From Inonotus obliquus (Eukaryota; Basidiomycota; Agaricomycetes; Hymenochaetales; Hymenochaetaceae), in contig JAJHTX010000001.1 of assembly GCA_032164295.1 (NCBI GenBank), positions 3,100,001 through 3,164,000 of the forward strand: a stretch of DNA of 64,000 nt. Reading direction: 5' to 3'. A program made the translations under genes and the position numbers. Positions within the stretch are counted from its first letter, which is position 1. Each line of letters opens with the position of its first letter. Below, in pieces: positions 30,853 to 59,052 of this stretch. The notes beneath the pieces were generated by a model, which was not told the origin of the DNA, made no database searches, and saw only the letters and a list, made by a program, of their open reading frames with translations.

Positions 30853-32170
30853 GTTAACATCCGTTGCTCTTTCTTTTCAACCACCATCATCGCCTGTAGC
30901 ATGGGTTGGGCCTCTCTGTGTGAGTGTGCTGTCCTGCGTGGACGTGGTGGGACGGCTCCGCTTCGCTGCCTTATGTGCAGTGGGCGTCATAAACCCAGTC
31001 TCCTTCATAGGACCTGGTCGACTGCAGTGGGAGACAGGCTGTTGTTCCTGTTCTCCGCGACTGTTCGCCTCTTACTCTCTGATGGAAACTATGCTGGCGA
31101 CCGTCCAGTTCGTCAAAACCGGCAGGGCTATAGCCTTCCCTTAAACTAAGTGTACTCCCGTTTGTCCACGATACGGCTTACTTGCGCCTCGGCGCACTAC
31201 GTTTCGAAGCGCAGCGGCGCATTTCTTAGGGCGGGGTCGTCACCCCCTGCTCTGCTCATATTCTATGGCGGTCATTGATTGGCTGTCGACGACTCTCTCA
31301 CGTCCGCTTCTCGGACTCCGGTTTCGTCCTTCACGCTCACACGGTCGGTTTACCGGTCCGGAGCTCATCGTTTACCCGAAGTTTGCGACACTCCGAAAAG
31401 ACGATCGCACGGCCTTCCACATAGGGCAGCGGGGTTTGGGGGTGATGCCCTGAATTCTCGTTCACGATCCTTAGGGCGCTGGGCGGCGCCTCGAGTACGG
31501 GTTGGCCCGAATATTTCCCGAAGCCGAACAATCTACTCCTGCCCACGGGTGGGACGAGTTCAAGAGGTCACGTACGTTATACGCGGGTTTCACGCCGGTA
31601 ACCAGGCCGGATGCTACCGGATGTAGCGACCCAGGACATCACGCCGGTAACAAGGCCGGATGCTGCCGGATGCAGCTGCTCCCTCAAACGTGGCGTACGG
31701 GGTCTGTCAGCGGGGAGGTAGTGGGGAAGTGAGGATGCAGTATCAAAAGTAGGGGCGGTGCATTCTTCTTTGGGTCTGGATTTTACGTCGGCACGGGTCT
31801 CTGTCAGGTATCTCCTGCTGAGTCTCATGTCCGATACTTCGCTTTTGATATGGTCGGCTCTGTTGTTTTTTATCCGTGGGGCGGTTTTTACAACAGGTAA
31901 TGTGGGAGGTCATGGTCTACCCGTTTTACGCGCCGGCTAGTTAGTTGCGTGGGGTTTTTTTTTTTCTTTTTTCCCCGCACATAGTTATTTTTGAAGGGCT
32001 ATTCGAGGGTGACTGTACCCGTTTTTCTGGTTGGGAATGTGGGAGGTCTTCGGACTGTACCCGTTTTCTCGCTGGGGATGTGGGAGGTTGCCTTTGACTA
32101 GCTCATATAGTTCTTTCCCGGTTCGTTTGTAACATGGCCACAAGCCATTATTATCAAATGAAATTATATT
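30853..32170 (+). mobile_element. E1: 1.3-kb non-autonomous partner element
   Basis: First unit of the array. It starts with the common motif, then ccatcatcgcctgtagcatg, and ends with the LINE-like tail (repeated ctgtacccgttttt / atgtgggaggt blocks, then cacaagccattattatc). Open frames of 82-129 codons exist in more than one phase but are not conserved between copies, so it is most likely non-coding. It contains the paired hairpins at 31613-31627 and 31662-31676. Confidence 0.85.
31591..31676 (+). repeat. E1: duplicated hairpin module with compensatory changes
   Basis: Two near-copies of a ~50-nt segment beginning cacgccggta. Each ends in a 5-bp stem with the same 5-nt loop cggat: gctac/gtagc at 31613-31627 and gctgc/gcagc at 31662-31676. 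The A-T pair of the first is a G-C pair in the second, so pairing is kept while sequence changes. The same two hairpins occur in E2, E4, E7 and E9. Confidence 0.75.
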
Positions 32171-33483
32171 GTTAACATCCGTTGCTCTTTCTTTTCAACC
32201 ATCATCATCGCCTGTAGCATGGGGTGGGCCTCTCTGTGTGAGTGTGCTGTCCTGCGTGGACGTGGTGGGACGGCTCTGCTTCGCTGCCTTATGCGTGGTG
32301 GGCGTCGTAAACCCAGCCTCCTACATAGGACCTGGTCGACTGCAGTGGGAGACAGGCTGTTGTCCCTGTTCTCCGCGACTGTTCGCCTCTTACTATCTGA
32401 TGGAAACTATGCTGGCGACCGTCCAGTTCGTCAAAACCGGCAGGGCTATAGCCTTCCCTTAGACTAAGTGCAACCCGTTCGTCCACGATACGGCTTACTT
32501 GCGCCTCGGCGCACTACGATTCGAAGCGCATCGGCGCATTTCCTAGGGCGGGGTCGTCAACCCCTGCTCTGCCCATATTCTATGGCGGTCATTGATTGGC
32601 CGTCGACGACTCTCTCACGTCCGTCTTCTCGGACTCCGGTTTCGTCTTTCACGCTCACACGGTCGGTTTACCGGTCCGGAGCTCATTGTTTACCCGAAGT
32701 TTGCGACACTCCGAAAAGACGATCGCACAGCCTTTCCACATAGGTAGCGGGGTTTAGGGGTGATGCCTTAGATTCCTGTTCACTACGCCAGGGCGCTTGG
32801 CAGGCGACCCAATGGGGCAGGCCGAATTTCTCTCGAAGCCGAACAACCTACTCCTACCTACGGGGGGACGAGTTCAAGAGGTCTCGCACGTTATACGCGG
32901 GTTTCACGCCGGTACCCAGGCCGGATGCTACCGGATGTAGCGACCCAGGACATCACGCCGGTAACCAGGCCGGATGCTGCCGGATGCAGCTGCTCCCTCA
33001 AACGTGGCGCGCGGGGTTTGTCAGCGGGGAGGAAGTGGGGAAAGCGAGGACGCAGTATTAAAAGTAGGGGCGGCGCACTCTTCTTTGGGTCAGTATTTTA
33101 TGTCGCACTCGGGCTCGGTCGGGCTTCATCCCGTCGAAGTCTCCTGTCCGACACTTTGCTTTCGATATGGTCGGCACTGTTGGTTTTTATCCAAAGGGTG
33201 GTTTTACAACAGGTAATGTGGGAGGTCTTAGGACTGTACCCGTTTTACGCGCCGGCTAGTTAGTTGCGTGGGGTTTTTTCCTTTTTTCCCCGCACATAGT
33301 TTTCTTTTGAAGGGCTAATCGAGGGTGACTGTACCCGTTTTTCTGGTTGGAATGTGGGAGGTCTTCGGACTGCACCCGTTTTCCCACTGGGGATGTGGGA
33401 GGTTGCCTTTGCTTTGCTCATTTAGTTACCCGTCTTCGTTTGTAACATGGTCACAAGCCATTATTATCAAATGAAATTATATT
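32171..33483 (+). mobile_element. E2: 1.3-kb non-autonomous partner element
   Basis: Second short unit, close to E1 but with its own substitutions and indels: the 32740-32830 part differs from E1 and matches E4. It has the same start motif, duplicated hairpins near 32920-32990 and the same tail ending tcaaatgaaattatatt. Confidence 0.85.
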
Positions 33484-34058
33484 GTTAACATCCGTTGCTC
33501 CAATCCGCGTCCGGTCCCAATTCACATTACACACACAGCCATCTCCCGTCTGGGAGAAACTACGTCGCTCCGCCTCCTGGCAGGAGTGTCAGCAACTGGT
33601 GAAGTACTATCTCGCCTTAGAGATATGGATGCGGACTGCGTCGATTGTAACGTTCTGGACACGATCGCACACCGCCTATTGGAATGCCCGAGATATCGGG
33701 GACTTTTTCCTCGTGCTCAATCGTTGGAGTGGTTTCACCGCTTCAACAATCTGCTCGCTTCGACTACTCTTCTAGCCGAAGTGTTCCAACCGCCGTGAAG
33801 GAGGATACGGTTTTACATCCTCTAGGGGGTGACGTTTTCCTTTGTCCCGACTCATGGCTAGTTTGAAGGGCATAGCGCAGGACTCTGTACCCGTTTTTCT
33901 TATTGGGAATGTGGGAGGTTGCTGATTTTAGTGACTGTACCCGTTTTTCTTATTTGGGATGTGGGAGGTTTCCTCTGTGTGTTCATTTTAGTTTACCCTA
34001 TATTAGGTATCGTCTGTAAATGGCCACAAGCCATTCTTATTATTACAAATGAAATATT
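33484..34058 (+). mobile_element. E3: severely truncated LINE copy
   Basis: After gttaacatccgttgctc at 33484 the sequence jumps directly to the last ~300 bp of LINE ORF2 (counterpart of ~40915 in E5). It keeps the zinc-knuckle end (CVDCNVLDTIAHRLLECP, then VEVFQPP-like with Ala for Val) and the full LINE 3' UTR. ORF1, the endonuclease and the RT are all missing. Confidence 0.88.
33586..33798 (+). pseudogene. E3: C-terminal remnant of LINE ORF2
   Basis: An open frame reads MSATGEVLSRLRDMDADCVD and on to FNNLLASTTLLAEVFQPP, matching the last 70 residues of the 1174-aa ORF2. It holds only the C-terminal CX2CX7HX4C knuckle and cannot act alone. Confidence 0.85.
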
Positions 34059-35335
34059 GTTAACATCCGTTGCTCTTTCTTTTCAACCTCCATCATCGCC
34101 TGTAGCATGGGGTGGGCCTCTCTGTGTGAGTGTGCTGTCCTGCGTGGACGTGGTGGGACGGCTCTGCTTCGCTGCCTTATGTGCAGTGGGCGTCGTAAAC
34201 CCAGCCTCCTACATAGGACCTGGTCGACTGCAGTGGGAGACAGGCTGTTGTCCCTGTTCTCCGCAACTGTTCGCCTCTTACTCTCGGATGGAAACTATGC
34301 TGGCGACCGTCCAGTTCGTCAAAACCGGCAGGGCTATAGCCTTCCCTTAGACTAAGTGCATACCCGTTCGTCCACGATACGGCTTACCTGCGCCGCGGCG
34401 CACTACGATTCGAAGCGCATCGGCGCATTTCCTAGGGCGGGGTCGTCAACCCCTGCTCTGTCCACATTCTATGGCGGTCATTGATTGGCTGTCGACGACT
34501 CTCTCACGTCCGTCTTCTCGGACGCCGGTTTCGTCTTTCACGCTCACACGGTCGGTTTACCGGTCCGGAGCTCTTGTTTACCCGAAGTTTGCGACACTCC
34601 GAAACGACGATCGCACAGCCTTTCCACATAGGTAGCGGGGTTTAGGGGTGATGCCTTAGATTCCTGTTCACTACGCCAGGGCGCTTGGCAGGCGACCCAA
34701 TGGGGCAGGCCGAATTTCTCTCGAAGCCGAACAACCTACTCCTACCTACGGGGGGACGAGTTCAAGAGGTCTCGCACGTTATACGCGGGTTTCACGCCGG
34801 TACCCAGGCCGGATGCTACCGGATGTAGCGACCCAGGACATCACGCCGGTAACCAGGCCGGATGCTGCCGGATGCAGCTGCTCCCTCAAACGTGGCGCGC
34901 GGGGTCTGTCAGCGGGGAGGAAGTGTGGGAAGCGAGGACGCAGTATTAAAAGTAGGGGCGGTGCACTCTTCTTTGGGTCAGTATTTTATGTCGGACTCGG
35001 GCTCGGTCGGGCTTCATCCCGTCGAAGTCTCCTGTCTGATACTTTGCTTTCAATATGGGCGGCACTGTTGGTTTTTATCCAAAGGGTGGTTTTACAACAG
35101 GTAATGTGGGAGGTCTTAGGACTGTACCCGTTTTACGCGCCGGCTAGTTAGTTGCGTGGGGTTTTCCTTTTTTCCCCGCACATAGTTTTCTTTTGAAGGG
35201 CTAATCGAGGGTGACTGTACCCGTTTTTCTGGTGAAAACTAGGGATGTGGGAGGTTGCCTTTGCTTTGCTCATTTAGTTACCCGTCTTCGTTTGTAACAT
35301 GGTCACAAGCCATTATTATCAAATGAAATTATATT
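34059..35335 (+). mobile_element. E4: 1.3-kb non-autonomous partner element
   Basis: Third short unit, 1277 bp, most similar to E2, including the variant around 34640-34750. Its tail has lost one ctgtacccg/atgtgggagg block. The AT-rich tail leads straight into the next start motif at 35336. Confidence 0.85.
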
Positions 35336-35368
35336 GTTAACATCCGTTGCTCTTTCTTTCTTACCGCC

Positions 35369-37687
35369 ATGTCTGATGGTGGCGAGTCCCGTAGTTTACG
35401 ATCGGTGACTAGAGGAGGAGTAAAACGTATTCAGGCAGCATTGTCCAGCAAAGGGGCACCCCCTGCGCCGCCAAAACCCGCCATCGGCCGTGTCTCCCAG
35501 TCTGTGGGGGCATCGTCGTTCGCCCCGGACCCAGATCTGATTAGGTCCCAGCTATCCCCAGCTGACTTGCAGGCAGCGGAGGCTGGTTTCAACGGCCGTG
35601 ACTCTGATCGGTGGACAGTTCCCACTGGCCACAGTGTCGACACAGCGGTGGCGGACGCCCTCAATCAACAGGAAGCACTCGACCGGCAGGAGGCCCTGGC
35701 CCAGCGCGCAGGGAAACGCAAGGCTTCAGGGGAGGCGGTTAGGGAGGTCCCTGAGCCTGGGAAGAAAACTTGGGACGAGCAGATGGAGGTGGAGAGCATT
35801 TTCGACGCTCAGACCGCCTACACGAGGACCTACACGTATGTGGGTGAATGTATGGACCGGATTGAAGCGGAACTTCGTATGCCGGACCCGGTCGAGGAAT
35901 CTCCCGGATCGCAGCCGGGCTCCACGGCCCATAATTACGAGCAGATGGGATATACCTTGGGCAAGGTAACGTCCATCTTATTCTCCGCTATCTCCCAATC
36001 TCGGGAAGACGGTCCGTTCGCCCAAAACGATTCCATGGACCGCTTTATGTGGGGTTTCTCTGGCGGCTACATGAAGGAATCCTTGTGGCCGGGTGGTTTT
36101 GAGGATGGACTACGCCACCTAGCCGACGACTGCGCCCTTACGCCAGCCGTATACCCGACGCATGGGAAGGACGTTGACCCGCAACTCTATGCGATCTTGG
36201 ACCGCCTCAAGCTTATGAGTGAGGAGCAGATGGCGGCTGGTCGACAGGCACGGGAGGCGGCAGATGAGACGAGGAAGCAGCTTGCCGTGATGGGTGAGAG
36301 GTTGAAGAAGGTCGAGCAGGGACGTTTGCCGGGTCCCGTCCACCAGACGACCGCAGGAGGCCAAGGGCTTCAGGCGTCTCGGTGGGCACAACCCCCCGCT
36401 GTGCAGGGTGCTGCCCCGGGAGGTGGACAGCATAAAGCACCCCAGAATGCGACCGCTAATCGACGCTCGGGCGAGCAGGTAGTAGCCCCCGTTGCGCAGG
36501 TCGTGCATAATACTACCCATCAAGAGGTCGCTCCTCCTAGGCCTGGGAAAGGAAAGGGAAGACAGGTTCCTCAGAACCCGCCCACTGACGTTATTGACGT
36601 AGACGCGATCAACTCGGCTAACGAGTCGCATGGCATCCCTGACCGCTACATACGGTATATCCCGGCTCCGGCTCCGGCGGCGCAGCCTTTCGTTCAGGTC
36701 ACCAGGAAGAATGCGGCCTCTCATTCTTATGCTCAGGCGGCGGGACGCTCTGCTAATGCTGCGGCCCCCGCCAAGAAAAAGAAGCCTATCACTATCAACC
36801 AGGCTCGCCAGAATAAAGCGAAGGTGGCTGCAGTCCTGGGCTTCCGCATCAAACCTCACCCGTCTCTCTCACGCGAGGAAATGTACATCGCGGCCAGAGC
36901 CTCGAAGCCAACGCCCAACAAGGGAGGCGCGATTACGCTGCGAAAGGGACAGTGGAACCTTAAAGGGGACTTTAATGTTGAGGTCGACGCGCGACCGGAC
37001 ATCGCAGAGTACGGACCAGCGTGGGCTGAGGAGCTGCAGAAGAAGCTCCGTATTACGTCCGATGCCATGACGTCAGTGGAGTTCGTCCCACATATTGAGA
37101 GCTTCCAGTTCATAGTCCCGGGATTCCCCATTCTCCACCCGGTCACCCGCAAGATCCACACGCCGGTAGAGATTGCCGAGGAACTCCGCCTGTCCAACCC
37201 AGTGTTTGTTGAATTCCCCTTTACGGAAGCACCTCACTTCGCGGGATCGGAAGCCACTCTTCAGCGTTTAGTTGAAAGAAATGTGAAGGCTACTGCATCG
37301 GTATTCGTGGCGGTCTCACATCCACTTAAAGCTAGGGATGCTATCTTCCACAGTAACGGCATCGTTAAGCAGGCTATTTGGTACTACGGCCGTTATCAGT
37401 ATGCGGTTGAAAAACGGGTCAGGACGGGCCCCATACAGTGCCGCAAGTGCTGGCGCTACCGCCACAGCGATCAGGACTGCATCGAGCTATTCCGATGCGC
37501 TAGATGTGCGGAGCCTCATCAAACGGAGCTATGCGAAAAGAAGTGCGACGCGTGCCCGGATGCTAACGTTTGCAAGCACGTCATCAAGTGCGCAAACTGC
37601 CAAGGCCCACATAGGGCTAACGACTCGCGCTGCCCCAGGCGCCCTACGAATAACGCTGCGCGTTCTGGCTCCCCGCCCACTTATTAA
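35369..37687 (+). CDS. E5 ORF1: gag-like nucleic-acid-binding protein of a LINE
   Basis: 772 aa. Residues 1-130 are basic then acidic and disordered. Around 280-317 (MSEEQMAAGRQAREAADETR, then LKKVEQG) is a likely coiled coil for oligomerisation, followed by a Gln/Pro-rich linker. From about 500 to 680 a folded domain (GQWNLKGDFNVEVDARPDIA, PHIESFQFIVPGFPI) resembles the conserved ORF1 core seen in fungal Tad-like LINEs. The C-terminus carries three knuckles: CX2CX4HX4C at 691-704, CX2CX3HX4C at 710-722 and CX2CX3HX6C at 741-755. The protein should coat the element RNA. Its stop TAA overlaps the ATG of ORF2 by one base. Confidence 0.9.
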   Translation: MSDGGESRSLRSVTRGGVKRIQAALSSKGAPPAPPKPAIGRVSQSVGASSFAPDPDLIRSQLSPADLQAAEAGFNGRDSDRWTVPTGHSVDTAVADALNQQEALDRQEALAQRAGKRKASGEAVREVPEPGKKTWDEQMEVESIFDAQTAYTRTYTYVGECMDRIEAELRMPDPVEESPGSQPGSTAHNYEQMGYTLGKVTSILFSAISQSREDGPFAQNDSMDRFMWGFSGGYMKESLWPGGFEDGLRHLADDCALTPAVYPTHGKDVDPQLYAILDRLKLMSEEQMAAGRQAREAADETRKQLAVMGERLKKVEQGRLPGPVHQTTAGGQGLQASRWAQPPAVQGAAPGGGQHKAPQNATANRRSGEQVVAPVAQVVHNTTHQEVAPPRPGKGKGRQVPQNPPTDVIDVDAINSANESHGIPDRYIRYIPAPAPAAQPFVQVTRKNAASHSYAQAAGRSANAAAPAKKKKPITINQARQNKAKVAAVLGFRIKPHPSLSREEMYIAARASKPTPNKGGAITLRKGQWNLKGDFNVEVDARPDIAEYGPAWAEELQKKLRITSDAMTSVEFVPHIESFQFIVPGFPILHPVTRKIHTPVEIAEELRLSNPVFVEFPFTEAPHFAGSEATLQRLVERNVKATASVFVAVSHPLKARDAIFHSNGIVKQAIWYYGRYQYAVEKRVRTGPIQCRKCWRYRHSDQDCIELFRCARCAEPHQTELCEKKCDACPDANVCKHVIKCANCQGPHRANDSRCPRRPTNNAARSGSPPTY

Positions 37688-40600
37688 TGAAGGGGGAGCT
37701 CCGATTTGTATCTTATAACGCTGGTCGTTCGCGTCTGGCTTTATTTATGGCTCAGCACAAACTGCAGGAGCAGGTTCTCTCTGCATGGGATCTGGACATC
37801 TGGTGTATCCAGGAGGTTCCCTTTTCTATGGTTGGCATTGCACGCACTACTGGCGAGCGAGAGGTTCAGGATACTGGAGCGCCACTCTTTAATGGACACA
37901 GGATCATTTCGGCTGTTGGCTTGAACCCGTGGGTGGCGATAGCGGTCCCAAACGGCATACGGTGGTCTCAGCATACGGACGTCCCACCTGATACGATGGT
38001 GCATGTGGAATTGCATCTGGATGCCGGGGACATACATGTTTTCTCGGTATACTGCCCGCATACTACACACGGGACTACTTGGAACGCTACGTCGCGCCGG
38101 TTTTCTCAAGGCTTCCCGGCTCGAACGGTCATTGGGGCGGATGTTAACGCCAGCGGGAGATGGTCTGATCTCCCTATTCCAATGCGGGTCGATACTCGCA
38201 TACGCTCGGACTTCTTTGAGTCTTGGCTGGATAACTCCCCTGAAATTGCGTGCGCAGACGATCCTAGGGTCATCACGTGTCACGGGGAGCGGCGGGGCAG
38301 TGGCACTCATCCGGATGTCATGTTCTTCACGCCTGGCACGCTCCCAGACCTACGGTCGACGTGGCGTGCTGTTAGAAATATCGGTACGGTTCGACAACAT
38401 AAAATCTTAGTTGCGGACTTCACTGGGATATACAACCGGGCTAGTCTAGTCCGCATGGGCATTCCTAATGACAAAGCTCAAGTATGGGCGGCGGAACTCG
38501 AGTACATGGTCCCGTCCGCGTTCTGGGAAGAGAGCTTTCGCAGCGAGGAGTCGGTATCAGCCTGGGTTACGAGGCTTTGGATTAGCGCCCAACAAGCGAC
38601 AAGCGCCCTCACCTACGAGACAACCTCTCAAAGGAAGGAGCAATGGTGGGATGAGGAGTGCGACCGACGGGTAGAGGAGGGTGCACCGGACCTCTTGTAC
38701 TGGCTGCGTGACAGACGGGAGGCATGGTATTATAAACGGCGGGAGGAGGCGGGAAACGCGTCCCCATGGTCCTTCCATAAGGCGGGCCTACCGCGGCGAA
38801 AAGTCAATATTCCTACGTTGGTGGCTCCGTTCAGGGCGGTCAGACACGTTGAGATCGCGCAGGCCTTCCGACAGCACTATTTCCCTGAGAGGAGGGACCC
38901 TATTGTGGACGTTCCCCTTCGTTCGGTTGGGCGTCAACATGACATCACGGAAAGCGAGGTTCTTATCGCGCTCAGTGGTATGCCAACTAACAGTGCGCCA
39001 GGCCCTTCTGGTATGTCGTTCCAGGCACTAGAGCGGGTCATCCGTCGTCACTCGGCATGTTTCACGCGCCTCTTCAATGGCATGATTGATTCGGGTTGTT
39101 TCCCGGCGGAATTGAAGCGGTCAGTTGTGGCCATGGTTCGTAAACCTAAACCATATCCACTGGACACCCCTAGGGCCTACCGTCCCATCTGTGTTGAAGA
39201 AGTACTAGCGAAGGTCTTTGAGAGGGTCATTGCGACTCGACTGCAGACTATGTTACATGGTAATCCTCTCTTCGATAAGAGGCAATTTGGAGGTAGACGC
39301 GGTTCCTCGGTCATGACGGCCTGGCACGCGATGCTAGCGGCATCTCAGGATGAGGAGGAGACGTATACCATGGTAGGCTTTGACATACAGGGCTTCTTCG
39401 ATACGGTCCGCCCTGAAGTCTTGAGGGGCAGCCTGGACGAGCTTGGAGTCCCGCAAACGTGGACGAACATCATAACGCGTTTCACGGAGCGGCGACAAAT
39501 CGCCTTCTCCTTCAATGGTCAGCGTTCGGCCTGGTTCACCAAGCCGAATATAGGCGTCCCGCAGGGTTCTCCTATGTCGCCGGTCCTGGCCAATATAGCT
39601 GCTAATATAGCGATCAGACATTTGGACCTGACGCTGTTCTTTTATATGGACGATGGCCTGCTTCTCACGCACGGACGCAATTCCTTTCGGCTCCTCCTCT
39701 CTACTCAAGAAGGCATGAGAAGGGTAGACACGGCGCTAGCGGCCATAGGCTTGAATATCGACCCGACGTCTATTAAGGGCATCGCTAAGGGGAGACATAG
39801 GGATTTCCTTAACGCCCCGCTCAATCTGAACGGCTCACAGATCGAATGGGCGGGCGACGTGCTTAAGTGGCTGGGCATTGAAATGTCCTACACAGGAAGC
39901 TTCCTGCCACACGTGGTCTCCAGACGAAACGCGGCGAAACATACGTGGAACGCGCTGCGGTGGATGACGAGTCGTGCGCGGGGCGCGCGGCTCAAAACGA
40001 TGCGTAGGTTTTATCAGAATGTCTTGGTCCCAGTCCTGGCGTGGGGGGCGCCTATCTGGATGACAAAGCACTCGGAACTCGCGGTCCGGTTCGAAGGCGT
40101 TCATAGACGGGCGCTTCTGGACTTGGGCGGTTGGCTGCCGCTTACTAGGACGGACGTCATGGAAATCCTCGCGGGTGTTCCCCCGATTCTACTTACGCTG
40201 GCGTACACCGCTGAATCTCAGAATGCCAGGATTGAGGCCAGCCGACTCGGATCTCTACCGGTTCGGGAAGATTATTGGAGGAGCATCAATCACCGCCCCA
40301 TACTCCCTGTCACACATTTTCCCAACCCGGCGCATCGTTCAGGCTGGCATAGGGTTACGGCCCATATACTGGATCACCCACTACGGGAACAAGGCCCAAC
40401 GGTGTGGGTCTTCTCATCTGACAGCCCCAGGAGAGCGGAGGTGTGGTCTGATAGCGGCGACGGTATGCTGCATAAGCAGGTAGCCTACCAGGCAACTCAC
40501 GATCTGGATTCCTTTTCTCTAGTTCTGGTATCGTTGGTTAAGTTTATGTCTCTCTTTTTGATTCATCCTTTCACATATGTGCGCGCGATTCCTATTCGTA

Positions 40601-48500: not shown

Positions 48501-49048
48501 TTGAACAGTTTATTAGTGCTAGTACACAGGCCGGAGCCCTTTTTTCTTTCCGTGTCTGCTCTGCCCGACTTTTCCCCGTCAAACCTCCATTGGAGAACGA
48601 CGAGTATGTTTTATTCCCGGCCGTTTCGGTCAATGGGGTCAAGGACTCCGCCCGCTTGGACATGATCCGTGCATGGAAGACGCTCGTACTTCAGGCGCGA
48701 ACTGCATCTCACCACACCATCGAAACACCGTCGCAGAGGCTCATCATCTCAAACCCGCGCCCGGTTCCGATTCACATTACGCACACAGCCATCTCCCGTG
48801 TGGGAGAAACTACGTCCCTCCGCCTTCTGGCGGGAGTGTCAGCAACAGGGGAAGTTATGTCTCGGCTTAGAGATATGGATGCGGACTGCGTCGACTGCAA
48901 CGTCCTAGACACAATCACGCACCGCCTACTGGAATGCCCGAGATACCGGGACCTTTTTCCTCGTGCGCAAACGTTGGAGTGGTTCCACCACTTCAACAAC
49001 CTGCTCGCTTCGACTACTCATCTAGTTGAAGTGTTCCAACCGCCGTGA
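45524..49048 (+). CDS. E6 ORF2: APE endonuclease and reverse transcriptase polyprotein of a LINE
   Basis: 1174 aa, co-linear with the E5 protein with no gaps and with the endonuclease and RT motifs retained, including the YMDD box and the C-terminal knuckle (CVDCNVLDTITHRLLEC). Where I compared them (around 45770-45860 against E5), differences from E5 were synonymous. The frame is intact although ORF1 upstream is broken; the TAATG junction is still present just upstream at 45522-45526. Confidence 0.92.
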   Translation: MKGELRFVSYNAGRSRLALFMAQHKLQGQVLSAWDLDIWCIQEVPFSMVGVARTNGEREVQDTGAPLFNGHRIILAVGPNPWVAIAVPNGIRWSQHTDVPPDTMVHVELHLDAGDIHVFSVYCPHTTHGATWNATSRRFSQGFPARTVIGADVNASGRWSDLPIPMRVDTRMRSDFFESWLDNSPEIACADDPRVITCHGERRGSGTHPDVMFFTPGTLPDLRSTWRAVRNIGTVRQHKILVADFTGVYNRASLVRMGIPNDKAEAWAAELEYMVPAAFWEESFRSKESVSAWVTRFWTSAQQATSALTYETTSQRKEQWWDEECDRRVEEGAPDLLYWLRDRREAWYYRRREEAGNASPWSFHKAGLPRRKVNIPTLVAPFRAVRHVEIAQAFRQHYFPERRDPIVDVPLRSVGRQHDIMESEVLIALSGMPTNSAPGPSGMSFQALERVIRRHSACFTRLFNGMIESDCFPAELKRSVVAMVRKPKPYPLDTPRAYRPICVEEVLAKVFERVIATRLQTMLHGNPLFDKRQFGGRRGSSVMTAWHALLAASQDEEETYTMVGFDIQGFFDTVRPEVLRGSLDELGVPQTWTNIITRFTEQRQIAFSFNGQRSTWFTKPNIGVPQGSPMSPVLANIAANIAIRHLDLALFFYMDDGLLLTHGRNSFRLLLSTQEGMRRIDTALAAIGLNIDPTSIKGIAKGRHRDFLNAPLNLNGSQVEWAGDVLKWLGIEMSYTGSFLPHVVSRRNAAKHTWNALRWMTSRVRGARLKTMRRFYQNVLVPVLAWGAPIWMTKHSELAVRFEGVHRRALMDLGGWLPLTRTDIMEILAGVPPIVLTLAYTAETQNARIEASRLGSPPVREDYWRSINRRPILPVTHFPNPAHRSGWHRVTAHVLEHPLREQGPTVWVFSSDSPRRAEVWSDSGDGMLQKQVAYQSTQDLDPFSLVLVSLVKFMSLFLIHPFTYVRAIPIRIYVPVSFRTDLLSPDSTVLAVIEQFISASTQAGALFSFRVCSARLFPVKPPLENDEYVLFPAVSVNGVKDSARLDMIRAWKTLVLQARTASHHTIETPSQRLIISNPRPVPIHITHTAISRVGETTSLRLLAGVSATGEVMSRLRDMDADCVDCNVLDTITHRLLECPRYRDLFPRAQTLEWFHHFNNLLASTTHLVEVFQPP

Positions 49049-49338
49049 AGGAGGATACGGTTTTTACATCCCTTCGGGGGTGACGTTTTCCTTTGTCCCG
49101 ACTCATGGCTAGTATGAAGGGCATAGCGCAGGGGACTGTACTCGTTTTTCTTATCGGGAATGTGGGAGGTTGCTGAATGTACCCTTTCTCTTCGGAGTGT
49201 GGGAGTTTGGTGACTGTACCCGTTTTTCTTATTTGGGATGTGGGAGGTTTCCTTTCGTTTGTTCGTTTTAGTTTACCCTAGTTTAGGTATCGTCTGTAAA
49301 TGGTCACAAGCCATTCTTATTATTACAAATGAAATATT

Positions 49339-50654
49339 GTTAACATCCGTTGCTCTTTCTCTTAAACCTCCATCATCGCCTGTAGCATGGGATGGGCCAT
49401 CCTGTGTGGGTGTGCTGTTCTGCGTGGACGTGGTGGGACGGCTCCGCTTCGCTGCCTTATGCGCGGTGGGCATCGTAAATCCAGCCTCCTACATAGGACC
49501 TGGTCGACTGCAGTGGGAGACAGGCTGTTGTCCCTGTTCTCCGCGACTGTGCGCCTCTTACTCTCTGATGGAAACTATGCTGGCGACCGTCCAGTTCGTC
49601 AAAACCGGCAGGGCTATTGCCTTCCCTAGGGTGGGGTGATCCGTTCGTCCACGATACGGCTTACTTGCGCCTCGGCGCACTACGACTCGAAGCGCATCGG
49701 CGCATTTCTTAGGGCGGGGTCGTCACCCCCTGCTCTGTTCACATTCTATGGCGGTCATTGATTGGCTGTCGACGACTCTCTCACGCCCGTCTTCTCGGGC
49801 TCCGGTTTCGTCTGTTACGCTCACACGGCCAGTTTCCCGGTCCGGAGCTCATTGTATACCCGAAGTTTGCGACACTCCGAAAAGACGATCGCACGGCCTT
49901 CCACATAGGGTAGCAGGGTTTAGGGGTGATACCCTGAATTCTCGCTCACGATCCTTAGGGCGCTGGGCGGCGCCTCGAGTACGGGTTGGCCCGAATATCT
50001 CCCGAAGCCGAACAATCTACTCCTGCCCATGGGTGGGACGAGTTCAAGAGGTCTCGTACGTTATACGCGGGTTTCACGCCGGTAACCAGGCCGGATGCTA
50101 CCGGATGTAGCGACCCAGGACATCACGCCGGTAACAAGGCCGGATGCTGCCGGATGCAGCTGCTCCCTCAAACGTGGCGTACGGGGTCTGTCAGCGGGGT
50201 GGTAGTGGGGAAGTGAGGATGCAGTATTAAAAGTAGGGGCGGCGCATTCTTCTTTGGGTCTGAATTTCACGTCGGCGCGGGTCTTTGTCAGGTATCTCCT
50301 GCTGAGTCTCGCGTCCGATACTTCGCTTTTGATATGGTTGGTACTGTTGTTTTTTATCCGTGGGGCGGTTTTTACAACAGGTAATGTGGGAGGTCTTGTG
50401 ACTGTACCCGTTTTACGCGCCGACTAGTTAGTTGCGCGGGGTTTTCTTTTCTTTTCCCCGCTTATAGATTGTTTTGAAGGGCAGAGTCGAGGGTGACTGT
50501 ACCCGTTTTTCTGGTTGGGAATGTGGGAGGTCTTCGGACTGCACCCGTTTTCTCGCCGGGGATGTGGGAGGTTGCCTTTGCTCCGCTCATATAGTTTTTT
50601 CCCGATTCGTTTGTAACATGGTCACAAGCCATTATTATCAAATGAAATTATATT
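49339..50654 (+). mobile_element. E7: 1.3-kb non-autonomous partner element
   Basis: Fourth short unit, closer to E1 than to E2/E4 in the 49900-50050 part. The duplicated hairpins lie at about 50075-50160. The start reads gttaacatccgttgctcttt then ctcttaaacc, a 5' variant shared in part with E9. Its tail runs into the next LINE. Confidence 0.85.
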
Positions 50655-50687
50655 GTTAACATCCGTTGCTCTTTCTTTCTTACCGCC

Positions 50688-53006
50688 ATGTCTGATAATG
50701 GCGAGTCTCGTAGCTTGCGATCGGTGACTAGAGGAGGAGTGAAACGTATTCAGGCAGTATTGTCTAGCAAAGGGGCTCCCCCTGCGCCACCTAAACCAGC
50801 CATCGGCCATGTCTCCCAGTCTGTGGGGGCATCGTCGTTCGCCCCGGACCCTGATTTGATTAGGTCCCAGTTGTCCCCAGCGGACCTGCAAGCAGCGGAG
50901 GTCGGCTTCAATGGCCGTGACTCTGACCGGTGGACAGTCCCCACTGGCCACAGTGTTGATACAGCGGTGGCAGACGCCCTCAACCAGCAGGAAGCGCTCG
51001 ACCAGCAGGAGGCCCTGGCCAAGCGCGCGGGGAAACGCAAGGCTTCAGGGGAGGCGGCTAGGGAGGACCCTGAGCCTGGGAAGAAAACATGGGATGAACA
51101 GATGGAGGTGGAGAGTATTTTTGACGCTCAGTCCGCCTACAACAGAACCTACGCTTTCGTGGGAGAATGCATGGACCGGATGGAAGCGGAACTTCGCATG
51201 CCGGACCCGGTCGAGGAATCACCCGGATCACAGCCAGGTTCTCTGGCGCATAATTATGAGCAGATGGGGTATACCTTGGGCAAGGTCACTTCCATTCTGT
51301 TCTCGGCTATCTCCCAATCCAGGGAAGACGGCCCATTCGCTACGAACGATAATATGGACCGGTTCATGTGGGGATTCTCCGCCGGATACATGAAGGAATC
51401 GCTGTGGCCGGGCGGTTTCGAGGACGGCTTACGTCACCTAGCGGACGACTGCGCCCTAACGCCGGCCGTCTATCCTACGCACGGGAAGGACGTGGATCCG
51501 CAGCTTTATGCGATCCTTGACCGCCTCAAGTTGATAAGCGAGGAACAGACGCTCGCTGGACGCCAGGCCCGTGAGGCGGCGGACGAGAATCGGAAGCAAT
51601 TGGCCGTATTGGGGGAACGGTTGAAGAAGGTCGAGCAGGGACGTTTGCCGAGTCCCGTCCACCAGACGACCGCAGGGGGCCAAGGGCTCCAGGCGTCTCG
51701 GTGGGCACAACCCCCCGCTGTGCAGGGTGCTGCCCCGGGAGGTGGACAGAATAAAGCACCCCAGACTGTGACCGCTAATCGACGCTCGGGCGAGCAGGTA
51801 GTAGCCCCCGCTGCGCAGGTCGTGCATAATACTACCCATCAGGTGGTCGCCCCTCCAAAGACCGGGAAAGGGAAGGGGAGACAGGTCCCGCAGAATCCGC
51901 CCGTTGACGTCATCGATGTGGATGCGATCAACTCGGCTAATGAGTCGCACGGCATCCCGGACCGCTACATTCGGTATGTTCCGGCGCCGGCTCCAGCGGC
52001 GCAACCCTTCGTTCAGGTCACTAAGAAGAACGCGGCCTCTCATTCCTACGCTCAGGCGGCGGGACGCTCTGCTAATGCGGCAGCTCCGGCTAAGAAGAAG
52101 AAACCCATCACTATCAACCAGGCTCGCCAGAACAAAGCAAAGGTGGCTGCAGTTTTGGGATTCCGCATCAAACCTCACCCTTCTCTCTCACACGAGGAAA
52201 TGTACATCGCGGCTAGAGCTTCTAAGCCAACCCCCAATAAGGGAGGCGCGATCACGTTGCGAAAGGGCCAGTGGAACCTCAAAGGGGACTTCAATATTGA
52301 GGTCGACGCACGACCGGACATTGCAGAATACGGTCCAGCGTGGGCTGAGGAGCTGCAGAAGAAGCTCCGCGTTACGTCGGATGCTATGACGTCAGTAGAG
52401 TTTGTTCCGCACATCGAAAGCTTCCAGTTTATAGTCCCGGGGTTCCCCATTATTCACCCGGTAACCCGAAAGATTCACACACCGGTGGAGATTGCCGAGG
52501 AACTCCGCCTATCCAACCCGGTGTTTGTCGAATTCCCCTTCACAGAAGCGCCTCGCTTCGCTGGATCGGAAGTCACTCTGCAACGTCTGGTTGATAGAAA
52601 TGCGAAGGCTACTGCGTCGGTGTTTGTGGCGGTTTCGCACCCACTCAAGGCTAGGGACGCTATCTTCCACAACAATGGCATCGTCAAGCGGGCTATTAGA
52701 TATTACGGCCGCTATCAGTACGCGGTGGAACAACGGGTCAGAACGGGACCTATTCAGTGCCGCAAATGCTGGCGCTACCGTCATAGTGACCAAGATTGCA
52801 TCGAGCTATTCCGATGTGCCCGATGCGCGGAACCTCACCAAACAGAGCTATGCAAAAAGAAATGTGATGCATGCCCGGACGCTAACGTGTGCAAGCACGT
52901 CATCAAGTGCGCTAACTGTCAAGGCCCGCACAGGGCTAACGACTCGCGCTGCCCCAGGCGCCCCACTAATAACGCTGCGCGTTCTGGCTCCCCGCCCATG
53001 TATTAA
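50688..53006 (+). CDS. E8 ORF1: gag-like nucleic-acid-binding protein of a LINE
   Basis: 772 aa, the same length as in E5, with all three C-terminal zinc knuckles. Substitutions cluster in the linker and coiled-coil part (LKLISEEQTLAGRQAREAAD). The TAATG overlap with ORF2 is present at 53004-53008. Confidence 0.92.
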   Translation: MSDNGESRSLRSVTRGGVKRIQAVLSSKGAPPAPPKPAIGHVSQSVGASSFAPDPDLIRSQLSPADLQAAEVGFNGRDSDRWTVPTGHSVDTAVADALNQQEALDQQEALAKRAGKRKASGEAAREDPEPGKKTWDEQMEVESIFDAQSAYNRTYAFVGECMDRMEAELRMPDPVEESPGSQPGSLAHNYEQMGYTLGKVTSILFSAISQSREDGPFATNDNMDRFMWGFSAGYMKESLWPGGFEDGLRHLADDCALTPAVYPTHGKDVDPQLYAILDRLKLISEEQTLAGRQAREAADENRKQLAVLGERLKKVEQGRLPSPVHQTTAGGQGLQASRWAQPPAVQGAAPGGGQNKAPQTVTANRRSGEQVVAPAAQVVHNTTHQVVAPPKTGKGKGRQVPQNPPVDVIDVDAINSANESHGIPDRYIRYVPAPAPAAQPFVQVTKKNAASHSYAQAAGRSANAAAPAKKKKPITINQARQNKAKVAAVLGFRIKPHPSLSHEEMYIAARASKPTPNKGGAITLRKGQWNLKGDFNIEVDARPDIAEYGPAWAEELQKKLRVTSDAMTSVEFVPHIESFQFIVPGFPIIHPVTRKIHTPVEIAEELRLSNPVFVEFPFTEAPRFAGSEVTLQRLVDRNAKATASVFVAVSHPLKARDAIFHNNGIVKRAIRYYGRYQYAVEQRVRTGPIQCRKCWRYRHSDQDCIELFRCARCAEPHQTELCKKKCDACPDANVCKHVIKCANCQGPHRANDSRCPRRPTNNAARSGSPPMY

Positions 53007-56000
53007 TGAAGGGAGAGCTACGATTCGTATCTTATAACGCTGGTCGTTCACGTCTGGCTTTATTTATGGCTCAGCATAAGTTGCAGGGGCAGGTTCTCTC
53101 TGCATGGGATCTGGACGTATGGTGTATCCAGGAGGTTCCCTTTTCTATGGTTGGTGTCGCGCGAACTACTGGCGAGCGAGAAGTTCAGGATACTGGAGCC
53201 CCCCTTTTTAATGGTCATAGAATCATTTTGGCTGCTGGATCGAACCCATGGGTGGCTATAGCGGTCCCAAACGGCATCCGGTGGTCTCAGCACACGGACG
53301 TCCCGCCTGATACTATGGTGCATGTAGAGATGCATCTTGATGCTGGGGACATACATGTCTTCTCGGTATATTGCCCACATACAACACACGGCACTACCTG
53401 GGACGCTACGTCGCGCCGTTTCTCTCAAGGCTTCCCGGCCCGCACGGTCATTGGGGCGGATGTTAATGCTAGTGGGAGATGGTCTGATCTCCCTATTCCA
53501 TTACGGGTGGATACTCGTACGCGTTCGGACTTTTTCGAGTCTTGGTTGGACAGCTTTCCTGAGATCGCATGTGCGGACGATCCAAGGGTCATCACTTGCC
53601 ATGGGGAGCGAAGGGGCAGTGGCACCCACCCGGATGTCATGTTCTTCACACCGGGTACGCTTCCAGACCTGCGGTCGACATGGCGCGCCGTCAGAAATAT
53701 TGGAACGGTTCGACAACACAAAATTCTAGTTGCGGACTTTACCGGGATATTCAACCGGGCTAGTCTAGTTCGTATGGGTATTCCTAATGACAAGGCTGAA
53801 GCTTGGGCGGCGGAACTCGAATACATGGTTCCGGCCGCGTTTTGGGAGGACAGCTTTCGAAACGAGGAGTCCGTGTCTGCTTGGGTGACGAGGTTTTGGA
53901 CCAGCGCTCAACAGGCAACAAGCGCTTTAACCTACGAGACAACTTCTCAAAGGAAGGAGAACTGGTGGGATGAGGAGTGTGATCGGCGGGTGAGAGAGGG
54001 TGCCCCGGACCTCTTGTACTGGCTGCGGGACAGGCGTGAGGCATGGTACTACAAACGACGGGAGGAGGCGGGAAATGCGTCCCCATGGTCTTTCCACAAG
54101 GCGGGCCTACCGCGGCGGAAGGTCAATATTCCTACGTTGGTCGCTCCTTTTAGGGCGGTTAGACACGTCGAGATTGCGCAGGCCTTCCGGCAGCACTATT
54201 TCCCAGAGAGGAGCGACCCTATTGCAAACGTCCCTCTTCGGTCGGTTGGACGCCAACATGATATTACGGAAAGCGAGGTCCTTATCGCGCTTAGTGGAAT
54301 GCCAACTAATAGTGCGCCTGGTCCCTCCGGCATGTCGTTCCAGGCACTAGAGCGGGTTATCCGGCGTCACTTGGCGTGTTTCACGCGCCTTTTCAATGGC
54401 ATGATAGGTTCAGGTTGCTACCCGGCGGAATTGAAGCGATCCGTTGTGGCCATGGTGCGTAAACCCAAGCCATATCCACTAGACACCCCCAGGGCCTATC
54501 ATCCCATCTGTGTTGAGGAAGTGTTAGCAAAGGTTTTCGAGAGAGTTATTGCGACTCGGCTGCAGGCCATGCTTCACAGCAACCCTCTCTTCGATAAGAG
54601 GCAGTTCGGAGGTAGACGCGGCGCCTCGGTCATGACAGCCTGGCATGCACTGCTGGCGGCATCGCAGGATGAGGAGGAAACTTATGCTATGGTAGGCTTC
54701 GACATCCAGGGCTTCTTCGATACAGTCCGCCCAGAGGTCTTGCGAGGTAGTCTGGACGAGCTGGGGGTCCCACAATCATGGACAAACATCATTACGCGAT
54801 TTACAGAGCGGCGACAAATCGCCTTCTCTTTCAATGGTCAGCGGTCGGCTTGGTTCACCAAGCCGGACATAGGCGTTCCGCAGGGATCCCCCATGTCTCC
54901 GGTCTTGGCCAATATCGCGGCCAACATAGCGATCAGACACTTGGACTTGACGCTCTTCTTTTACATGGACGATGGTCTGCTCCTTACTCATGGTAGGAAT
55001 TCTTTCCGACTCCTCCTCTCCACTCAAGAGGGTATGAGACGTATAGACACAGCGTTAGCGGCCATAGGCTTGAAAATCGACCCGACGTCCATTAAGGGCA
55101 TTGCCAAAGGGAGGCATAGGGACTTCCTGAACGCCCCGCTAAACCTGAATGGCTTACAGATTGAGTGGGCGGGCGACGTGCTGAAGTGGCTGGGCATAGA
55201 AATGTCCTACACAGGGAGTTTCCTACCGCACGTGGTCTCTAGACGAAATGCGGCGAAGCACACGTGGAATGCGGTGCGGTGGATGACGAGTCGTGCGCGG
55301 GGCGCTCGGCTCAAGACGATGCGGAGGTTCTACCAGAACATCCTCGTTCCGGTCCTGGCGTGGGGAGCGCCTATTTGGATGACTCAGCAATCGGAGCTTG
55401 CGGTCCGTTTCGAAGGGGTTCATAGACGAGCGCTTATGGATCTGGGCGGTTGGCTCCCGCTCACTAGGACGGACATCATGGAAATTCTCGCGGGTGTTCC
55501 CCCGATAGTTTTGACACTGGCCTATACGGCTGAAACTCAGAATGCTAGGATAGAGGCTAGTCGACTCGGATCCCCACCGGTTCGGGAAGAATACTGGAGA
55601 AGTGTCACTCGTCGTCCTGTGCTTCCTGTGACGCATTTTCCGAGCTCGGTGCATCGCTCTACTTGGCACAGAGCCACGGCTCATATACTGCAACATCCAA
55701 TACGGGAGCAGGGCCCAACTGTGTGGGTTTTTTCATCTGACAGCCCGAGGAGAGCGGAGGTTTGGTCGGATAATGGCGACGGTATGCTAAATAAGCAGGT
55801 CGCGTACCAGTCTACTCAGGATTTAGATTCCTTTTCCTTAGTCCTTGTTTCTTTGGTTAAGTTTATTTCTCTCTTTCTGATTCACCCGTTCACATACGTG
55901 CGCGCGATTCCTATTCGTATTTACGTTCCAGTCTCTTTTCGGACGGATCTTCTTTCACCGGACTCTACAGTCCTGGCTATTATTGAACAGTTTACTAGTG

Positions 56001-56233
56001 CTAGTACACAGTCAGGGGCCAATTTTTCTTTTCGCGTTTGCCCTACCCGCCTTTTTCCCGTCAAGCCTCCGTTGGAGAACGACGAGTTTGTTTTATTTCC
56101 GGCCGTTTCGGTCAATGGGGTCAAGGACTCCGCACGCTCAGATATGGTCAGGGCATGGAAGACGCTCGTACTTCAGGCGCGTACTGCGGCTCACCATACT
56201 ATCGAAACACCGTCGCAGAGGCTTATCATTTAA
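53006..56233 (+). pseudogene. E8 ORF2: endonuclease-RT frame ended by a premature stop
   Basis: 1075 codons with intact endonuclease and RT motifs (FDIQGFFDTV, GVPQGSPMSP, YMDD), then TAA at 56231-56233 where E6 has TCA. The remaining ~98 codons, including the terminal zinc knuckle, stay readable to 56530. The protein would lack only the knuckle region; whether it functions is unknown. Confidence 0.9.
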
Positions 56234-56783
56234 AACCCGCGCCCGGTCCCTATCCATATTGCACATGCAACCATCTCCCGTGTAGGAGAAACCACGTCCC
56301 TCCGCCTTCTGGCTGGAGTTTCAGCAACAGGGGAAGTCATGTCTCGTCTTAGGGATATGGACGCGGATTGTGCCGACTGTAATGTCTTGGATACAATTAC
56401 GCATCGCCTACTGGAATGCCCGAGATACTGGGGCTTTTTTCCTCGCGCGCTTACGTTGGATTGGTTTCACCGTTTCAACAACTTGCTCGCTTCGACTACT
56501 CGTTTAGTCGAAGTGTTCCAACCACCATGAAGGAGGATACGGTTTTTACATCCCTTCGGGGGTGACGTTTTCCTTTCGTCCCGACTCATGGCTAGTGTGA
56601 AGAGCATAGCGAAGGGGACTGTACCCGTTTTTCTTATTTGGAATGTGGGAGGTTGTTGACTGTACCCGTTTTTCTTATTTGGGATGTGGGAGGTTTCCTT
56701 TTAGTGTTCGTTTTAGTTTACCTTAGTTTAGGTATTGTGTGTAAATGGTCACAAGCCATTCTTATTATTACAAATGAAATATT

Positions 56784-58072
56784 GTTAACATCCGTTGCTC
56801 TTTCTCTTTAACCACCATCATCGCCTGTAGCATGGGTTGGGCCTCTCTGTGTGAGTGCGCTGTCCTGCGTGGACGTGGTGGGACGGCTCCGCTTCGCTGC
56901 CTTATGAGCAGTGGGCGTCGTAAACCCAGTCTCCTTCATAGGACCTGGTCGACTGCAGTGGGAGACAGGCTGTTGTCCCTGTTCTCCGCGACTGTTCGCC
57001 TCTTACTCTCTGATGGAAACTATGCTGGCGACCGTCCAGTTCGTCAAAACCGGCAGGGCTATAGCCTTCCCTTAGACTAAGGATCCCCGTTCGTCCACGA
57101 TACGGCTTACTTGCGCCTCGGCGCACTACGACTCGAAGCGCATCGGTGCATATCCTAGGGCGGGGTCGTCACCCCCTGCTCAGTTCCCTTTTCTATGGCG
57201 GTCATTCATTGGCTGTCGACGACTCTCTCACGTCCGTCTTCTCGGGCTCCGGTTTCGTCCTTTACGCTCACACGGTCGGTTTACCGGTCCGGAGCTTATC
57301 TTATACCCGAAGTTTGCGACACTCCGAAACGACGATCGCACGGCCTTCCACATAGGGTAGCGGGGTTTAGGGGTGATGCCCTGAATTCTCGTTCACGATC
57401 CTTAGGGCGCTAGGCGGCGCCTCGATTACGGGTTGGCCCGAATGTCTCCCGAAGCTGAACAATTTACTCCTGCCCACGGGTGGGACGAGTTCAAGGGGTC
57501 TCGTACGTTATACGCGGGTTTCACGCCGGTAACCAGGCCGGATGCTACCGGATGTAGCGACCCAGGACATCACGCCGGTAATAAGGCCGGATGCTGCCGG
57601 ATGCAGCTGCTCCCTCAAACGTGGCGTACGGGGTCTGTCAGCGGGGAGGTAGTGGGGAAGTGAGGATGCAGTATCAAAAGTAGGGGCGGTGCACTCTTCT
57701 TTGGGTCTGGAAGTTTACGTCGGCGCGGGTCTTTGTCAGGCATCTCCTGCTGAGCCTCACGTCCGATACTTTGCCTTTGATATGGTCGGCCCTGTGAGTT
57801 TTCCCATCGGGATGGGTTTTTCGAGCGGGTGTCCGACTAGTTAGTCGCGCGGGGTTTTTCTTATTTTTTCCTTTTCCCCGCAGCTGTATGTTTTGAAGAA
57901 CTGAGTCGAGGGGACTGTACCCGTTTCTCTTGTTTGGAATGTGGGAGGTTTTCGGACTGTACCCGTTTTTTAGACTTGGGATGTGGGAGGTTTCTTTTGC
58001 TTTTTTCATTTAGTTTTACCCGAGTTGTTTGTAACATGGTCACAAGCCATTATTATCAAATAACACTATATT
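56784..58072 (+). mobile_element. E9: 1.3-kb non-autonomous partner element
   Basis: Fifth short unit. Near 57795-57850 it carries a different sequence (ttttcccatcgggatgggtt) from the other four, and its tail reads tcaaataacactatatt instead of tcaaatgaaattatatt. The duplicated hairpins are kept at about 57520-57605. One of the alternative frames open in other copies has a stop (TGA at 56906) here. Confidence 0.83.
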
Positions 58073-59052
58073 GTTAACATCCGTTGCTCTTTCTCTTATA
58101 CCGCCATGTCTGATAATGGCGAGTCCCGTAGCTTACGATCAGTGACTAGGGGAGGAGTGAAGCGTATTCAGGCAGTATTGTCTAGCAAAGGGGCTCCCCC
58201 TGCGCCACCTAAACCAGCCATCGGCCATGTCTCCCAGTCAGTGGGGGCACCGTCTTTCGTCCCGGACCCTGCTTTGATAAGGTCCCAGATGTCCCAGAAA
58301 TCCTTAGAGGACCTGCGGGCACGAACAGCTGACTCCGGGTGGGACGTCCCCACCGGTCACAGCGTCGACACGGCAGTGGCAGACGCGCTCAACGAACAGG
58401 ACGCCCTGGCCAAACGCCTGGGGAAACGCAAGGCATCGGGGGAGGCTCCAGCGAGGGAGGCCCCTGAGCCTGGGAAGAAATCGTTGGACGAGCAGATGGA
58501 GGTGGAGAGCGTATACGACGCACAGACCGCCTACAGCAGAACCTACGCGTTTGTGGGAGAATGTATGGACCGGATGGAAGCGGAACTCCGGACGCCGGAC
58601 CCGGTCGATGAATCGCCTGGATCACAGCCTGGCTCGTCAGCGCATAACTACGAGCAGATGGGGTATACCTTGGGAAAGGTCACGGCCATCATTTTCTCGG
58701 CCATCTCCCAGTCGCGGGAGGACGGCCCGTTTGCACAGAATGACGTCATGGACCGGTTCATGTGGGGATTTTCCGGTGGTTACATGAAAGAATCCCTTTG
58801 GCCGGGTGGTTTCGAGGATGGCCTGCGTCATCTGGCCAACGACTGTGCTCTTACGCCGGCCGTTTACCCGACGCATGGGAAGGACGTTGACCCGCAGATG
58901 TATGCGATCTTGGACCGTCTCAAGCTTATGAGTGAGGAGCAGATGGCGGCTGGTCGACAGGCACGGGAGGCGGCGGATGAGACGAGGAAGCAGCTTGCTG
59001 TGTTGGGTGAGAGGCTGAAGAAGGTTGAGCAGGGACGTTTGCCGGGTCCCGT
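58073..59052 (+). mobile_element. E10: 5' part of a LINE, interrupted by an LTR retrotransposon
   Basis: Start motif and leader, then ORF1 from 58106. The copy is cut at 59052 by the 5' LTR; its remainder would lie beyond the right edge of the window. Confidence 0.88.

Follow-up and report, generated by a model that had tools for sequence, protein, structure and literature searches.

A 64,000-nucleotide stretch of the genome of the fungus Inonotus obliquus (the window, C1:3100001-3164000, from the one assembly studied, of 36.07 Mb in 30 contigs) contains a ten-unit, head-to-tail array of retrotransposons of the long interspersed nuclear element (LINE) type and of a short non-autonomous partner. 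We consider it likely that both elements insert beside an E-box, a six-base regulatory motif, that the site is restored on the 5' side of each new copy, and that stacks build up in this way.

The 17-bp motif GTTAACATCCGTTGCTC occurs in ten exact copies in the window, all on the + strand, whereas shuffled sequence contains a mean of 0.08 copies with up to three mismatches. At every junction between units, the 3' tail of one unit abuts the next motif copy. These observations confirm the same-strand, ten-unit arrangement described by an earlier reading of the letters alone (the sequence-only reading). The array is composed of four full-length LINEs, five non-autonomous elements of ~1.3 kb and one 5'-truncated LINE, arranged as follows.

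30853, 32171, 33484, 34059, 35336, 41501, 49339, 50655, 56784 and 58073, + strand: start positions of the exact matches to GTTAACATCCGTTGCTC
30853..32170, + strand: unit 1, short non-autonomous element, with the motif at its start
32171..33483, + strand: unit 2, short element
33484..34058, + strand: unit 3, 5'-truncated LINE, its last ~560 bp directly behind the motif
34059..35335, + strand: unit 4, short element
35336..41500, + strand: unit 5, full-length LINE, 6165 bp
41501..49338, + strand: unit 6, full-length LINE with a reverse-oriented insertion (~43719-45382)
49339..50654, + strand: unit 7, short element
50655..56783, + strand: unit 8, full-length LINE with one stop codon in open reading frame (ORF) 2
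56784..58072, + strand: unit 9, short element
58073..59052, + strand: unit 10, full-length LINE, first part; the rest lies beyond the window at C1:3187297-3189381 and 3195879-3198954

The sequence-only reading had ended the array at 59052, which is where a long terminal repeat (LTR) element interrupts unit 10. The unit resumes at C1:3187297, is broken a second time at C1:3189382-3195878, and reaches the true end of the array at C1:3198954; it is followed by an eleventh motif copy, GTTAACATCCGTTGCTT, in which the last base is T for C, and then by a host gene. The array thus occupies 3.13-3.20 Mb of a 4.36-Mb contig, an internal position. No telomere repeat is present at the eleven junctions examined, as the sequence-only reading had noted, and the elements lack this mark of telomere-targeting LINEs.

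The motif is target sequence and not the 5' end of the element, because the 5'-truncated unit 3 starts right after it. Moreover, it is found again after the last unit and therefore behaves as a target site duplication (TSD) must. Both observations support the earlier proposal that LINEs inserted repeatedly, each duplication recreating the landing site. Of the 25-bp motif put forward in that proposal, the duplicated part is ACATCCGTTGCT(C), a TSD found only at this array, whereas GTTA belongs to the element tail.

30857..30869, + strand: first TSD copy, ACATCCGTTGCT(C); the preceding GTTA completes the 17-bp motif

Stacking at a re-used TSD is not confined to the window. The genome holds at least 39 copies of ORF2 of the LINE (39 of 153 first-look candidates were scored), and 25 of them are listed in six same-strand clusters. 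Across loci the element tail ends in ..TTGTTA, or in ..TTTGTTTGTTA in a second family, and the sequence that follows is locus-specific. The nine stacked loci each have a spacer of their own.

C1 window: ACATCCGTTGCT
C13: AACCCAC..
C12:1.08M and C12:459k, the C12 arrays: TGCCCATGyCC(C) and TTGATAAGCTT
C8:34k: TCCTTCCCTTCT
C8:1520k: GAGTTATTTGGCTT
C5:1817k: GGAACCCACGA
C5:2307k: CAAGACTCAGACTC; the element tail there ends in TTTGT
C1:3897k: CTGATATGGCAT

TSDs of 11-13 bp are present on both sides at C6:2712k, C2:1556k and C11:1173k, and TSDs also flank the C12:459-491k array. Five of the left flanks (C1, C13, both C12 arrays and C6:2712k) have a single genomic match each. The second LINE family (58-60% ORF2 identity), as read from array junctions, forms the arrays at C12:1079-1130k (at least 10 units) and C12:459-491k (at least 6 units), with a period of ~6115 bp and, judging from the spacing, a short partner of ~1.13 kb. 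On C3, a left boundary at 1166571 (L078) and a right boundary at 1152.7k (L022) lie 13.8 kb apart and have TGCCGC[CA]AAAC in common; from these sequences, C3 probably holds one more array.

What the loci have in common lies upstream of the insertion point. At the C1 array, the left host flank carries an E-box.

30732..30856: left host flank, reaching from the insertion point back to the initiation codon (30734, minus strand) of a 122-amino-acid (aa) ORF; it ends in the 12 bases ATTATATTGTTA
30838..30843, + strand: E-box CATGTG, 13 bp before the insertion point

An exact CAYGTG ends 13-15 bp before the insertion point at eight of the nine loci with a readable left flank and a known insertion point. 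The spacing is 13 at C1, 14 at C6:2712k, C2:1556k and C2:4297k, and 15 at C12:1.08M, C12:459k and C11; at C6:2712k it may be read as 13 or 14, since one A is assignable to the tail or to the TSD. In an unbiased search, in which eight left flanks were aligned at the insertion point and 6-mers with at most one two-base position were counted in a 3-base window with no motif preset, the best 6-mer was CAYGTG, present in 7/8. Among 3000 draws of eight random host segments, the best 6-mer count was 2 in 2673 draws, 3 in 326 and 4 in one, and none equalled the observed 7/8. CAYGTG starts in a given 3-base window at only 0.10% of positions in window 1-30850.

The flanks behind the 7/8 count predate the naming of the motif, and three more left flanks (C3, C6:2076k and C10:1351k) were then fetched as a test. 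The flank at C3:1166571 has CACGTG 15 bases before TGCCGC, with the insertion point read independently at the right boundary at C3:1152.7k; this boundary, on the same strand, is taken to close that insertion or array at its opposite end. In a separate set of 20 fetched stretches, L071, L073, L074 and L077 missed the 5' boundary of the element and gave no left flank. The insertion at C2:4297238 (L050), already counted above as C2:4297k, is an ultra-truncated tail of ~38 bp with a TSD of ~6 bp, 14 bp from an E-box.

In the proposed mechanism, the LINE and the short element would insert by target-primed reverse transcription 13-15 bp downstream of CAYGTG, duplicating about 11-13 bp of target. The E-box, the flank and one TSD copy would stay 5' of the new element, so that the site would be restored there and only there, while internal junctions would carry the element tail in the place of the E-box. 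The next copy would then re-use the restored site, and the array would grow at its 5' end. Units are separated by one TSD at a re-used site, as in R1-like stacking, and the E-box model would explain the ten-fold use of a single TSD. We infer that the position of the nick is set by the E-box, either via the endonuclease or via a bound protein of the basic helix-loop-helix (bHLH) type. A more specific version, in which a host bHLH-type factor guides the LINE to genes, the bound factor setting the nick 13-15 bp downstream and the surviving site recruiting further copies, is a tentative proposal that we rate at somewhat below even chances. If it were true, the order of units in each array would record which lineages were active at successive times, and the genes chosen would mirror the regulon of the factor.

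CAYGTG was not found in the last 35 bases of one short and one long tail of the C1 array, so that the E-box is confined to the 5' boundary of the array. Because it remains only there, growth at the 5' end is expected, and we regard such growth as probable. In the C13 spacers, AACCCAC is constant and the sequence beyond it varies: the left boundary and the two nearest junctions have CCTGC, and the base before AACCCAC is G, not A, in the two rightmost junctions. At C12:1.08M, the left boundary and the first junction read TGCCCATGC (C) and the next seven read TGCCCATGT (T), the right boundary being unread; units 1 and 2 of this array have two bases in common that differ in its other units (13 tail ends compared over 64-100 bases). 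The long-element lineages likewise follow array order in C1 and C13. The ORF2 tree forms a chain that runs from C3 through the right end of C13 (640k, 652k), 660k and the left end of C13 (666k, 673k) to C1 unit 10, unit 8, and then units 6 and 5. Support is 39, 60 and 74 around 640k/652k/C3 and 660k, 47 among the outgroups and 100 at the other nodes. The trees cover 14 of the at least 39 ORF2 copies and 10 short copies; L027, L028 and L031-L034, which are more distant or partial, were left out. When the C1 long units are compared with six nearer, non-independent copies, identity decreases at every step from unit 10 down to unit 5 in 5/6 comparisons; with four more distant copies there is no such decrease, and for two of them identity rises slightly. 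Under one-sided growth, successive generations of the element would lie in order along each array. The C-versus-T difference in the spacer at unit 3 was dropped as evidence of direction, given that CTC microhomology is present where the truncated copy begins.

Several observations weigh against insertion beside an E-box with growth at the 5' end. The ninth locus, C13, has CTCGTG at 15, one mismatch from CAYGTG. Of the test flanks, C6:2076k has GACGTG at an insertion point without independent reading, and C10:1351k, beside a 75%-identical copy, has no motif within one mismatch; the E-box evidence covers nine loci plus these two ambiguous ones. The leftmost short unit, unit 1, takes a position in the tree between unit 7 and units 2/4 and is not the most derived. 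Private changes are mostly synonymous in 9/9 units compared, giving no age gradient, and the rightmost unit 10 has only 7 non-synonymous private codons of 931, so that greater age of the right end is not apparent from decay. The assembly contains no empty allele, the C1 left flank matching once. Finally, pairing with the tail may help insertion at C1, where the flank has 12 tail bases.

An alternative is that the E-box merely marks open promoters and that chromatin or the transcription-start complex anchors insertion. Among the 13 right flanks longer than 1 kb, six (C1, C13, C8:82k, C2:1556k and C9 twice) have an ORF of at least 90 aa starting from an ATG within 130 bp, compared with a background of 7-10% over window 1-30850 (binomial 9e-4 at 10%); the thresholds were picked after viewing the flanks, the two from C9 are related to each other, and C12:459k (155 bp) is too short to count. 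ORF starts near the right flanks would fit E-boxes near promoters. However, the E-box spacing varies by only 3 bases, whereas the first such ORF lies anywhere from 28 to >130 bp away, and we regard anchoring by promoter features as improbable. Pfam matches above cut-off among the right flanks are limited to C1 and C8:82k, that of C2:1556k being below cut-off and in a downstream ORF. At C8:82k (L024), an ORF starting 35 bp into the right flank matches the Crinkler N-terminal domain (E-value 3.6e-5). C9:1784k (L028) and C9:1699k (L029) have nearly the same right flank, reflecting either duplication of host DNA or insertions ahead of two genes of the same family.

Nor do we favor, at a slightly lower probability again, insertion directed by the junction of the 3' tail (..TATTGTTA) and the TSD, the tail being recognized by the RNA 3' end or by the endonuclease and the array growing internally or rightward. 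The tail is read at internal junctions, bases 30845-30856 of the C1 left flank (ATTATATTGTTA) are 12/12 identical to the 3' tail of the short element, and unit 1, seeming older than units 2 and 4, fits insertion just to its right. The six other left flanks (C13, two on C12, C11, C6:2712k and C2:1556k), however, have at most one base in common with the tail end, and 5/6 have an exact E-box. Left-boundary spacer variants also match the nearest junction in C13 and C12:1.08M, which argues against tail-directed insertion. The 12 tail-like bases at C1 seem to be original host sequence, because the E-box spacing would otherwise be 1 and not 13; an ultra-truncated insertion at this place was set aside on account of the 1-bp spacing. 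The sequence-only reading had noted attatatt before the motif in the left flank, as in the tails of short units: at internal junctions attatattgtta is indeed the 3' tail, whereas the copy in the left flank is seemingly host DNA.

Tandem duplication or unequal crossing-over of one insertion is very unlikely. The arrays are regular and on one strand, the C1 long elements form one clade, units 2 and 4 share 97.7% identity, and consecutive R1 copies in Drosophila melanogaster have been ascribed to amplification in the available text of Stage and Eickbush 2009 (PMC2718515). The units are nevertheless far too divergent for this process, which was rejected on their synonymous divergence (dS, up to 0.81) and on the ratio of non-synonymous to synonymous divergence (dN/dS). 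Over nine same-array ORF2 pairs, dS is 0.16-0.81 at dN/dS of 0.055-0.091; the C1 long-unit pairs give 0.28-0.73 at 0.055-0.090 and the three C13 pairs 0.16-0.81 at 0.067-0.091. Furthermore, two element types and a truncated one alternate, and C1 units 2 and 4 have 94.5% and 94.2% identity, respectively, to the short unit at C13:672k, more than unit 2 has to units 1, 7 and 9 (86-90% for both units 2 and 4).

Two further explanations are barely credible. Read-through RNA carrying the TSD of its own array at the 3' end could home by base pairing, and the C1 long elements do form a clade distinct from C13, but short elements switch arrays and still acquire the local TSD, the C13 672k unit clustering with C1 units 2 and 4. 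A LINE that recognizes the ~25-bp stretch as such, the fixed target of the sequence-only reading, would account for the same 17 bases at ten window junctions, but the same family sits elsewhere at unrelated spacers and in unrelated flanks without the motif, the very finding that reading had named as counting against its target, and the common feature, the upstream E-box, lies outside the 25 bp. A genome search, which it had recommended for the 25-bp motif, found the 17-mer, with up to two mismatches over the whole assembly, only at the eleven places of this array and at one C6 site, which has two mismatches, shows no match to the array region and is unrelated. Taken as a whole, the interpretation given in the sequence-only reading is partly supported.

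The full-length LINEs (units 5, 6, 8 and 10) are ~6.1 kb long and contain two ORFs, which in unit 5 are the following.

35369..37687, + strand: ORF1, 772 aa, with zinc-knuckle-like cysteine motifs near the C-terminus, seen by eye; no Pfam match
37687..41211, + strand: ORF2, 1174 aa, with reverse transcriptase at residues 488-694 and a weak match to an apurinic/apyrimidinic endonuclease (APE)-type endonuclease at residues 116-221

The reverse transcriptase matches PF00078 with an E-value of 5e-27. The endonuclease match (PF14529) is weak, with an E-value of 0.05, below cut-off; in the 33%-identical relative P0001 it reaches 4e-6 (27.1 bits against a cut-off of 27.4). A domain search for RNase H, a Tad-clade feature, gave no match in ORF2 at E≤1. 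TSDs and 5' truncation are present, as in non-LTR retrotransposons, and the long element is a two-ORF LINE with a probable APE-type endonuclease. The short element (units 1, 2, 4, 7 and 9) has a few 5' bases and ~200 bp of the 3' end in common with the LINE, at 74-83% identity. An RNA or tRNA gene was rejected as its source, with no Rfam match at the gathering threshold in 30401-35400 and no tRNA in 28000-64000. Just before the 3' ends of units, at 49134-49249, 56617-56695 and 57912-57993, lie two to three copies of a ~37-42-bp repeat (GACTGTACCCGTTTTTCTTATT..GGAATGTGGGAGGTT); like the HeT-A 3' end, it could provide the promoter of the unit that follows.

The array separates two divergent genes by about 68 kb. 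On the left, the 122-aa ORF is on the same strand as an exon with an Urb2 domain farther left (window 25530-26393, minus strand). On the right, a gene with an RWD domain (E-value 3e-12) has its ATG at C1:3198982, 11 bases past the 12-base TSD. The site between these genes is not the 28S ribosomal DNA target of the R1 clade. Named matches to a host protein come from Irpex, Lactarius and Paramarasmius, all Agaricomycetes. The LTR retrotransposon that breaks unit 10 (window 59053-64000 and on to C1:3187296) has ~28 kb between its matching ends, and its terminal repeats hold 29-bp and 16-bp repeat arrays. The insertion in unit 6 (~43719-45382) is a reverse-oriented match to this terminal repeat, and the second insertion in unit 10 (C1:3189382-3195878) measures ~6.5 kb.

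What is understood about target choice by LINEs concerns mostly loose targets (L1) and repeated genes (R1, R2). The closest likeness is with R1, for which the available text of Stage and Eickbush 2009 (PMC2718515) describes tandem copies in seven Drosophila species, separated by the 14-bp TSD, and concludes by inference that new copies entered the TSD on the 5' side of a resident R1. In both systems, LINEs stand head to tail at one site with a TSD between them (14 bp in R1, about 12-13 bp here). According to the same text, the bottom-strand cut of R1 is rigid and the top-strand cut flexible, and the C13 spacers suggest likewise here. Many R1 arrays, perhaps all, are located within the multicopy 28S locus, and where they are most frequent their mean length is two to three units (PMC2718515). 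In contrast, the arrays described here occupy many sites, each with its own spacer and with a common E-box upstream; they can be at least 10 units long and contain a short non-autonomous element as well. The insertion address thus seems to be the 28S gene for R1 and the E-box here.

HeT-A, TART and TAHRE of Drosophila are added to chromosome ends and are not known to make a TSD, whereas the arrays here are internal with a TSD between units. They too form tandem LINE arrays, in which the 3' end of the upstream neighbor could act as a promoter (PMC4700185). MoTeR elements of Magnaporthe are likewise fungal retrotransposons with two forms (MoTeR1 and MoTeR2) mixed in tandem arrays; these differ in having telomere or telomere-like tracts between units and in lying at chromosome ends, where recombination can amplify them (PMC8381367, in part). 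Zepp of Coccomyxa also forms clusters of LINEs, but these are nested, with one, probably centromeric, cluster per chromosome, whereas here C12 alone has two clusters with exact TSD spacing (PMC3446292, in part). LINE insertions are variable at the 5' end, and a family without reverse transcriptase is thought to borrow that of a relative; the portion of PMC9674265 that states this mentions no LINE arrays. Among the matches listed from the open-licence PMC literature, none concerned LINE stacking at scattered fungal sites or E-box-directed LINEs.

A LINE that returns to the same base at unrelated sites, with a six-base regulatory motif at fixed spacing, makes nick guidance directly testable. We know of no element guided by an E-box. 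DNA-bound host factors guide Tf1 of fission yeast (Atf1) and Ty3 (TFIIIB), and TRE5-A of Dictyostelium inserts near tRNA genes. Tf1 and Ty3 differ from the elements described here in being LTR elements that use an integrase; what all three share with the proposed mechanism is a fixed distance between the insertion point and a bound factor, close to promoters.

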